Of a stretch of DNA of 64,000 nt, positions 5,024-7,557 are shown in pieces. The stretch is from Bacteroidales bacterium (lineage in GTDB: Bacteria; Bacteroidota; Bacteroidia; Bacteroidales; JAIOZK01): positions 1 to 64,000 of the forward strand of contig JAIOZK010000006.1 of assembly GCA_021740625.1 (NCBI GenBank). The letters are read 5' to 3'. A model generated the notes under the pieces. The model was not told the origin of the DNA and made no database searches. It saw only the letters and a list, made by a program, of their open reading frames with translations. Both the position numbers and the translations under genes were made by a program. How positions within the stretch are numbered: position 1 is the first letter of the stretch; every line of letters starts with the position of its first letter.

Positions 5024-5956
5024 TCAAATCCCCGACGTATTCAAATTCCCCAGGCTCATGGTCAGGGTGCGTTTAATATCTTTCTTCTGATCGGCAAATA
5101 CTTTTACAGTTACCTGCAGGTGAATATTATAGATATTCAGGTTCAATTCCTTTGATCTGATCTGGCCGATTTTCAATACATCGGAATTGATCACGCCTGA
5201 ATCACGCGTTACTTTGGTATCGATGATCTCATTATCACCTGTACGGATAATTTCTTTATCGTAGTCCTGAAATTCGGCAATATTTGCTAGCTCGTGTATG
5301 GTAAGTACTTGCAGATTTTCAATTCCATCAATATTGATCAGGAACCAGTCATACGTATTTTGATCGATCAGGCAGCGGTTCAGGGCATCCTTTTCCAGTA
5401 TACGGGCATTGTTGATGATGGATGTTCCGTAAAAATTATTATCAAAACTAAACAGGGTGTCATAAGTAATGGCATAACGCAGGCTAACACTGCCGGTGAT
5501 ATTTCTAAGTTTGGGATAAACATGATAGGCATTGTAAGATCGCACCAGGATTTCAAAATTGATGGCAAAGAACAAAGCATGCATGGGATTGTCGAAAATA
5601 ACAAATCCGCCATCGCCGGTACTGATGAATGATTGCTCAATTTTTTTCGCATCATATTTCTGGAAGACAAACTGGTTGTTTTCAAGACTCAGGCGAATGG
5701 CCTTTTCAAAAAAAATCTTAAAAACCGTGGGAATGAGCGTTTGCTGAAGATGGGGGTAAAGACCGTACCTGTATATATCAATACCGAGCACAGCTCGTTT
5801 TTTAAAACTTCTGACATTGATAAACTCGGTAAGCTTCTGATATAATTCTTCGCTTTCCGGGATCACATTTACCTTTTCGAAAGTCGATTCGGTATCCAAT
5901 TCTTTCAAAAGTTCTTTAATTTCCGAGTATGATAGTTTTCTTATTTTCTCAGGCAT
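5024..5956 (-). CDS. Divergent class III nucleotide-cyclase-like protein
   Basis: A 310-residue soluble protein without signal peptide or membrane segment. Residues about 52-200 follow the order of a class III adenylate/guanylate cyclase domain: VLGIDIYRYG with Asp60 at the first metal site, FISTGDGGFVIF with Asp115 in the GDG motif, a hydrophobic helix, then RYAITYD, and YGTSIINNARIL with Arg185. The canonical N-x3-R pair is altered, with Ile181 where Asn is expected, and the purine-selecting Lys before GD is Ser/Thr. The C-terminal 90 residues form a beta-rich region I do not recognise. It may be an unusual cyclase or a non-catalytic nucleotide sensor. It is transcribed away from a 24-bp palindrome and a structured RNA gene. 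The fold call is by motif order only. Confidence 0.6.
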   Translation of the reverse strand: MPEKIRKLSYSEIKELLKELDTESTFEKVNVIPESEELYQKLTEFINVRSFKKRAVLGIDIYRYGLYPHLQQTLIPTVFKIFFEKAIRLSLENNQFVFQKYDAKKIEQSFISTGDGGFVIFDNPMHALFFAINFEILVRSYNAYHVYPKLRNITGSVSLRYAITYDTLFSFDNNFYGTSIINNARILEKDALNRCLIDQNTYDWFLINIDGIENLQVLTIHELANIAEFQDYDKEIIRTGDNEIIDTKVTRDSGVINSDVLKIGQIRSKELNLNIYNIHLQVTVKVFADQKKDIKRTLTMSLGNLNTSGI

Positions 5957-6084: not shown

Positions 6085-6108
6085 AGTTATTAACAATTGT
6101 TAATAACT
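6085..6108. promoter_or_regulatory. Perfect 24-bp palindrome, operator candidate
   Basis: The half-site AGTTATTAACAA is followed directly by its exact reverse complement. It sits between the start of the cyclase-like gene (129 bp away, minus strand) and the promoter of the structured RNA (-33 element at 6146). A homodimeric regulator could bind here and control one or both. Confidence 0.6.
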
Positions 6109-6145
6109 CCTGTTAATTTAAAGTGAATATGAAAAACGAAAAAAA

Positions 6146-6178
6146 CTTGCGATGCGTGCTTAATCTTTTATATCTTTG
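6146..6178 (+). promoter_or_regulatory. Bacteroidota-type promoter of the structured RNA
   Basis: CTTG at 6146-6149 and TATCTTTG at 6171-6178 match the -33 (TTTG) and -7 (TAnnTTTG) elements, separated by 21 bp. Transcription should begin near 6183-6186. Confidence 0.8.
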
Positions 6179-6182
6179 ATTC

Positions 6183-6517
6183 ATCAAGCGAGCGATAAAA
6201 GGCCGTTTGCAGAGCGATGACAGCGCAACGAAGCGTGGACCGAAAGGGCAAGCGTGGAGCAAAGCCGGGACTCAAAGCAGAAGGAAGGCTGAAAAGCCGA
6301 CCGGAAGCAGCGAGAAAGTTCTGTAAATCGGGACTCAGTGAAGCTCCATCCGTCTTCGGACAATGAAAGCGACTGAGTCCGGGCAGAAGGGAAAGCCCCA
6401 CGGGGCGGAACCGATGCAGCCAGCCAGAATAACCGTAACTTGACACAAACCGGAAGCTACGGCATCCGGGGAGTGAATGGGAACTCAACCAAACGGTCGG
6501 GTTCCCATTGTGTTTTT
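6183..6517 (+). ncRNA. Structured non-coding RNA of unrecognised family
   Basis: A GC-rich island of about 335 nt in AT-rich surroundings, with a strong promoter before it and an intrinsic terminator at its end. Visible helices: GGCT-GAAA-AGCC with a GNRA-type loop (6287-6298); an 8-bp stem GGACTCAG/CTGAGTCC (6331-6338 with 6373-6380) that encloses a GTC-TTCG-GAC hairpin (6352-6361); GCCCC-AC-GGGGC (6395-6406); CCGTA/TACGG (6433-6437 with 6458-6462). The element AAGCGTGGA occurs twice near 6230-6260. I looked for the hallmarks of RNase P RNA, tmRNA, SRP RNA and group II introns and did not find them. The downstream protein gene is on the other strand, so it is not a leader. The 5' end is inferred from the promoter. 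Identity and function are unknown. Confidence 0.75.
6474..6517 (+). terminator. Intrinsic terminator of the structured RNA
   Basis: A 9-bp stem, AATGGGAAC (6476-6484) with GTTCCCATT (6501-6509), plus an inner ACC/GGT pairing, is followed by TGTGTTTTT. Confidence 0.85.
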
Positions 6518-6555: not shown

Positions 6556-6579
6556 ATTCACGCATTCGTGGCTAATTTT
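6556..6579. repeat. Short intergenic repeat (GCATTCGTGGCTA type), copy 1
   Basis: ATTCACGCATTCGTGGCTAA lies at the end of the TrkA-C gene and contains its stop codon (6572-6574, minus strand). Further copies are at 7425-7445 (inverted) and 7535-7557. Confidence 0.7.
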
Positions 6580-7424: not shown

Positions 7425-7445
7425 TTAGCCACGAATGCACGAATA
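7425..7445. repeat. Short intergenic repeat, copy 2 (inverted)
   Basis: TTAGCCACGAATGCACGAAT is the reverse complement of the copy at 7535-7557; the two could pair across about 90 bp between dnaG and the TrkA-C gene. Confidence 0.75.
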
Positions 7446-7534: not shown

Positions 7535-7557
7535 AATATTCGTGCATTCGTGGCTAT
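7535..7557. repeat. Short intergenic repeat, copy 3
   Basis: ATATTCGTGCATTCGTGGCTA ends five bases before the dnaG stop codon and is the inverted partner of copy 2. Confidence 0.75.

Follow-up and report, generated by a model that had tools for sequence, protein, structure and literature searches.

A probable new class of large structured RNA in Bacteroidales, with putative DnaA boxes upstream of its promoter

Background

A G+C-rich stretch that begins at about position 6182 (plus strand) of the window, that is, of the whole 64,000 nucleotides analysed (contig JAIOZK010000006.1 of a Bacteroidales bacterium, assembly GCA_021740625.1), raises the question of what is encoded there and how it is controlled. 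A preliminary description, made from the letters of the window, had proposed a free-standing structured RNA of unknown family, with a promoter, a terminator and a neighbouring operator-like palindrome. The question has some general interest, as few bacterial RNA classes of comparable size and complexity are known, and several of these have poorly understood functions.

Results and discussion

The RNA gene in the window

The features of the locus are listed in Table 1. The promoter is as first described, with CTTG and TATCTTTG separated by 21 bp, and the reported lack of a long plus-strand frame is borne out in the window sequence. The terminator is likewise present, but its stem is longer than the 9 bp originally claimed, comprising 15 consensus pairs among the relatives. 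A UUCG loop lies near 6352-6359 and a UACG loop at 6458-6461.

Table 1. Positions of the RNA gene, its predicted structural elements and its promoter array in the window
Feature	Position	Strand	Basis or remark
Inverted DnaA-like box pair, palindrome TTATTAACAATTGTTAATAA	6087-6106	.	aligned in 72 distinct homologous promoters
Putative box I TTATTAACA	6087-6095	+	2 bp from box II
Putative box II TGTTAATAA	6098-6106	-	inverted relative to box I
Half-site III TGTTAATTT, consensus TGTTNATA	6111-6119	-	+14 to +21 from palindrome centre in 72 promoters; degenerate in the window
Half-site IV AGTGAATAT, consensus TGTKNATA	6122-6130	-	+25 to +32 in 72 promoters; 2 bp from III; degenerate in the window
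-33 element CTTG	6146-6149	+	sequence; promoter alignment
-7 element TATCTTTG (Bacteroidota TAnnTTTG)	6171-6178	+	sequence; homologous promoters
Structured RNA gene, about 336 nt	6182-6517	+	predicted start about 6182; homologues in register at both ends
P1, 5' strand UCAAG	6184-6188	+	pairs with 6439-6443 (CUUGA)
Core internal loop, 5' side CGAGCGAUAAAA	6189-6200	+	consensus YGAGNGAUAAAA, nearly invariant
P2, 5' strand	6201-6203	+	pairs with 6423-6425
Variable multi-helix domain	6204-6422	+	consensus fold of 7 close homologues
P2, 3' strand	6423-6425	+	column-pair test; consensus fold of close homologues
Core internal loop, 3' side AGAAUAACCGUAA	6426-6438	+	consensus ANAAUAACNGUAR, nearly invariant
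P1, 3' strand CUUGA	6439-6443	+	column-pair test
3' hairpin with UNCG-type (UACG) loop	6444-6475	+	within models R1 and R2
Intrinsic terminator	6476-6517	+	stem 6476-6509, T-run 6513-6517

The folding energy of the plus strand is modestly lower than that of shuffled sequences (z = -2.9), and because the minus strand is equally better than its shuffles (z = -3.1), it was set aside as evidence. That the feature is beyond chance, and that the proposed free-standing structured RNA is supported, follows from the existence of homologues in many families, from covariation, and from a promoter array at a fixed distance, all described below. A minus-strand open reading frame of 106 aa (6168-6488) is unsupported as coding, because the same-genus homologue contains indels that are not multiples of three. 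A protein-level comparison between diverged homologues gave 185 matches; the inspected ones are short, and neither frame nor strand is constant among them, so they are read as probably reflecting the conserved ends of the RNA, and this comparison is not decisive on coding capacity.

Distribution of the family

None of the Rfam 15 covariance models matches the RNA at the gathering threshold, and at E values up to 10 the only match is a chance one, located over the promoter on the opposite strand. This outcome is the one that the preliminary description had predicted for a novel RNA, and its proposed search for homologues was likewise productive, relatives being found across the Bacteroidota by blastn, by a model of the 3' domain and by a 5' pattern.

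With blastn, pieces of the segment 6150-6530 were found in a genome of the same genus and in six other families of the order. The eight first copies share the promoter, the 5' end (A)UCAAGUGAGCGAUAAAAG, the 3' block AAUAACNGUARCUUGG, the hairpin and the terminator, while the middle is variable. With a covariance model restricted to the 3' domain (R1), matches at E ≤ 0.01 were obtained in 94 of the 393 genomes that were sampled from this order, though a few of the lowest-scoring ones are doubtful. About three quarters of these genomes are without a detectable copy, and so the RNA is not universally needed. An independent search of named genomes with an exact pattern, composed of the -7 element and the 5' end, gave 80 loci, nearly all in Bacteroidota, in genera including Draconibacterium, Maribellus, Sunxiuqinia, Tangfeifania and Lentimicrobium, as well as Cecembia, Mariniradius, Pleomorphovibrio and Aquiflexum. 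An R1 match lies downstream on the same strand in about 73 of the 80, and this agreement is strong confirmation, because each search is blind to the opposite end of the RNA. In a phylum-wide sample of 395 genomes, convincing copies were found in just one further family (f128, probably Cyclobacteriaceae); weak R2 matches at three loci (L211-L213) were not accepted as copies.

Both ends are in register in 109 homologues. Lengths in the family are mostly between about 285 and about 650 nt. There is usually one copy per genome, with two or three in some, and tandem copies occur. Tandem or closely spaced duplicates are seen at L049, L050, L051, L052 and L156; at L051 they lie on both sides of a single gene of 286 aa. 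No match was found to the 5' pattern in the viral_contigs set, nor to the RNA in plasmids and phages by distant blastn, and a phage or plasmid origin was rejected for this lack of relatives in viral, phage or plasmid records. No paper describing the RNA was found in the open-access literature. Judged against Rfam 15 and open-access papers, these sequences appear to constitute a new, uncatalogued family of large, free-standing, elaborately folded RNAs, present in many Bacteroidales and some Cyclobacteriaceae.

Conserved ends and variable interior

In the proposed fold, helix P1 is formed by the 5'-terminal YCARR and YYUGR of the 3' block, and helix P2 by GRY and RYC just inside. Covariation was assessed over 102 distinct sequences and 64 columns with our own implementation modelled on R-scape (not R-scape itself), in which substitutions were placed by parsimony on a FastTree tree and re-dealt to random columns. 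The top four of all column pairs are 3-56, 19-39, 0-59 and 18-40, with E values of about <0.01, 0.02, 0.14 and 1.5, respectively, of which the two weakest are not significant taken alone. All four belong to P1 or P2 and are in nested register: P1 accounts for ranks one and three (3-56 and 0-59, each paired in 101 of the 102 sequences), and P2 for ranks two and four. The 5' columns of the pattern-found loci are partly fixed by the pattern, although either base was permitted at positions 0 and 3, and 18 and 19 were unconstrained. The P1 variants comprise UCAAG/CUUGA, UCAGG/CCUGA, UCAGA/UCUGG and CCAGA/UUUGG, together with CCAAA/UUUGG in L210.

The inner helices also show compensatory changes. 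In a subclade of 14 sequences (488-499 nt), two-sided changes with pairing kept are present in 54 of 146 predicted pairs, or in 40 of 128 at another setting. In the latter run RNAalifold did not choose P1, which hardly varies in this subclade, and the support for P1 comes from comparison across lineages. For the window RNA and six close relatives, the consensus fold has 77 pairs over the whole RNA, 29 of them with two-sided changes. The covariation check proposed in the preliminary description thus turned out positive, both in the top-ranked pairs of P1 and P2 and in the two-sided changes of the inner helices.

This comparison shows the ends of the RNA as pairing in two predicted helices, P1 and P2, with a nearly invariant internal loop between them, and it shows within these paired ends a predicted multi-helix domain that evolves fast. 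In the core loop, GUA opposite GA would fit a bulged-G (sarcin-ricin) module.

The promoter array

DnaA is the protein that starts chromosome replication, and the elements upstream of the RNA promoter resemble its binding sites. In 72 distinct promoters the distance from the palindrome to the first paired base downstream is 86-88 bp; for two tandem copies in one genome it is 97 and 98 bp, which is one helical turn further. From the palindrome centre to the TTTG of the -7 element it is 77-78 bp in seven of the eight first homologues and 89 bp in the eighth, again one helical turn more. In the promoter alignment the half-sites TGTTNATA and TGTKNATA sit 13 and 11 bp on. The fourth base of half-site IV is G in 49% and T in 51% of the 72 promoters, an alternation that may represent the interchange of canonical and A-type DnaA boxes. 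The palindrome search required AACA..TGTT, leaving flanking bases and further half-sites unconstrained, so that the conservation of these eight bases is partly due to selection by the search. Promoters lacking an exact palindrome often still have related boxes, as in L090, which has four TGTKGATA-type sites, and in Cyclobacteriaceae, which have direct TGTGGATAA repeats.

The array consensus TGTKNATAA reads TTATNMACA on the opposite strand, and the published DnaA box consensus is TTATnCACA (PMC5742627). A gap of 2 or 3 bp between boxes is preferred by E. coli DnaA (PMC11317965), and the gap is 2 bp for I-II and III-IV. In 112 upstream regions there are 225 matches, at fixed positions, to TTATNCACA or accepted variants with at most one mismatch, versus about 27 in base-shuffled copies. 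These observations argue strongly that the 9-mers are DnaA boxes, from which it would follow that the RNA is transcribed in response to DnaA and, through it, to replication state or growth rate. The operator-like palindrome of the preliminary description is therefore real, and a conserved part of the gene in 72 promoters, but a simple operator fits less well than DnaA boxes; the array is better read as a putative inverted DnaA-box pair followed by two direct half-sites, at an activator-like distance. DnaA boxes near a promoter are also a feature of DnaA-regulated promoters such as those of E. coli dnaA and mioC. In the present case, however, the regulated gene would specify a large non-coding RNA, and the putative boxes are upstream of the promoter, at the distance of an activator site, and not across it.

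The strongest competing explanation accepts the same RNA family but takes the palindrome to be the site of a dedicated regulator, such as a Crp/Fnr-type activator (PrfA-like TTAACAnnTGTTAA), and not of DnaA. The core TTAACA-AT-TGTTAA equals a PrfA-type box, the palindrome without mismatch occurs once in the window's own genome, and the fixed spacing would suit a class I activator. However, DnaA better accounts for the pair of additional direct half-sites and for the alternation of G and T, and likewise for the direct exact TGTGGATAA repeats in Cyclobacteriaceae and L090 and the presence of the same boxes in the rpiB/oriC-like clusters described below. A dedicated regulator is thus considered rather unlikely.

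Still less probable is that the DNA itself is the functional part, as a DnaA-regulating locus like DARS or datA, with the RNA as a by-product. The boxes form close pairs, and box I is inverted relative to those that follow, an arrangement shared with the E. coli DARS1 and DARS2 cores (PMC5742627; the DARS1 sequence was checked). The start-to-start spacings, however, are 11, 13 and 11 bp here versus 14 and 12 in DARS1, and the boxes are mostly TTATNAACA, not TTATNCACA. Moreover, they hold a fixed distance to an RNA promoter, and the RNA has strong covariation and conserved ends.

The same boxes at other loci

Across the order, the palindrome is listed at 75 sites, 40 of them upstream of the RNA and some at other loci. 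In G071 and G363 it occurs within box clusters upstream of rpiB, at or near the GC-skew minimum. At L297 it precedes a gene read as dnaB, the replicative helicase. At six loci (L292, L294, L295, L304, L305 and L307) its neighbours are a LOG-family gene on one side, followed in several cases by uvrA, and on the other a conserved gene whose product is a membrane-type protein of roughly 400 aa starting with MIKY or MIKH. In 20 regions where the palindrome has no accompanying model match, no convincing RNA was found (one, L288, is cut off by a contig end); these regions instead showed oriC-like clusters, dnaB and the uvrA-LOG locus.

The window's own genome (G000) has four TTATNAACA-type (A-type) boxes within about 260 bp upstream of rpiB (G000:C47:90779-91034; L341, L342), at a local minimum of cumulative GC skew. 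The background box density is 0.16 per kb, as measured in G302 and G282. This cluster is a candidate for the predicted oriC of the genome. Bacteroidetes origins are commonly far from dnaA (PMC4755523). The present survey suggests TTATNAACA as the main form of DnaA box in Bacteroidales, and the region upstream of rpiB as a frequent site of oriC. The RNA locus as oriC itself was rejected, since GC skew does not switch there in the manner of an origin in either G302 or G282.

Comparison with known RNAs

The preliminary description recognised none of the usual housekeeping RNAs, and this agrees with the Rfam 15 result. That the RNA is a diverged member of such a family (RNase P RNA, tmRNA or 6S RNA) is highly improbable and already largely refuted. 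Its size is similar to that of RNase P RNA and tmRNA, and tmRNA was not found in the window's own assembly, but the bacterial type A RNase P RNA is elsewhere in the genome (RF00010 match at G000:C52:41627-42023, 236.6 bits) and not at the RNA, and most relatives carrying the RNA also have an ordinary, separate tmRNA. Neither RF00023 nor ARAGORN gives a tmRNA match at the RNA, the latter finding only one tRNA in the window, and there is no match to 6S-Flavo (RF01685) there.

Elsewhere in the genome (G000:C13:50999-51137) there is a weak 6S-Flavo match, which at 44.9 bits does not reach the Rfam cut-off, and similar sub-threshold matches in 12 relatives suggest that diverged 6S RNAs of this order escape the model. 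As for tmRNA, none is over the cut-off in the own assembly, which is 95% complete, while the sister genome G001 has one; perhaps an assembly gap is responsible.

OLE, ROOL and GOLLD are large, elaborately structured bacterial RNAs with poorly understood functions (PMC12286853), and the present RNA is like them in these respects. It differs in the taxa that carry it, and the search of Rfam 15 as a whole gave no match that would place it with them. GOLLD, furthermore, is phage-borne, whereas the present RNA was not seen in phage or plasmid records. Comparative genomics has yielded the candidate structured RNAs Bacteroidales-1, Bacteroides-1, Bacteroides-2, Flavo-1 and 6S-Flavo in Bacteroidota (PMC2864571). 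The RNA has no match to those of them in Rfam; Bacteroides-2, which is without an Rfam entry (PMC2864571, table), is outside this comparison.

Genomic neighbourhood

In the window, the RNA is convergent with a gene for a TrkA_C-domain protein and dnaG. The neighbours vary by lineage: dnaG and the TrkA_C gene; rplQ-eno before and ubiD after; a relA/spoT-like gene; and others, the names being assigned by inspection of the proteins or, where it was applied, by Pfam. They occur in both orientations, and synteny is lineage-specific. The comparison of neighbours gave no consistent partner or target gene recurring across lineages. Together with its own promoter and terminator, this shows the locus as a single, free-standing predicted gene.

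The idea that the RNA is a long leader or cis-regulatory RNA of a neighbouring gene, as might be thought from the same-orientation gene that follows it in several lineages, deserves the least credence, given its own intrinsic terminator and a downstream gene that is convergent in the window and differs among lineages.

Two further observations concern the surroundings. A protein of 310 aa (5024-5956) without a Pfam match is conserved beside the RNA in five genomes. In the gaps flanking the TrkA_C gene there are three perfect copies of GCATTCGTGGCTA, one in inverted orientation (6562-6574, 7426-7438 and 7544-7556), with 0.06 expected by chance when one mismatch is allowed.

Proposed role

The locus is most likely a new class of large non-coding structured RNA under DnaA control. 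DnaA would bind the putative upstream boxes and set transcription of the RNA by replication state or growth rate. The RNA might then act in trans. A conserved core assembled from the two ends, around an interior that varies freely, suggests a site for binding or tertiary contact together with a scaffold; the core could be where a protein or a tertiary partner makes contact, with the variable domain as the scaffold. The promoter, for its part, suggests a link of the RNA to replication or growth, and the RNA could conceivably tie some cellular process to chromosome replication. The function is open to experiment, because the regulatory signal points to a pathway.

Conclusion

The family is common in environmental Bacteroidales and is also present in cultured Draconibacterium, Maribellus, Tangfeifania, Cecembia and Aquiflexum. 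It is a tentative suggestion that this new class of large RNA, set by DnaA, may serve Bacteroidota as an RNA arm in the control of replication or the cell cycle. If control by DnaA is true, the family would provide a non-coding RNA tied directly to the initiation of replication, in a phylum whose replication control has been little studied.
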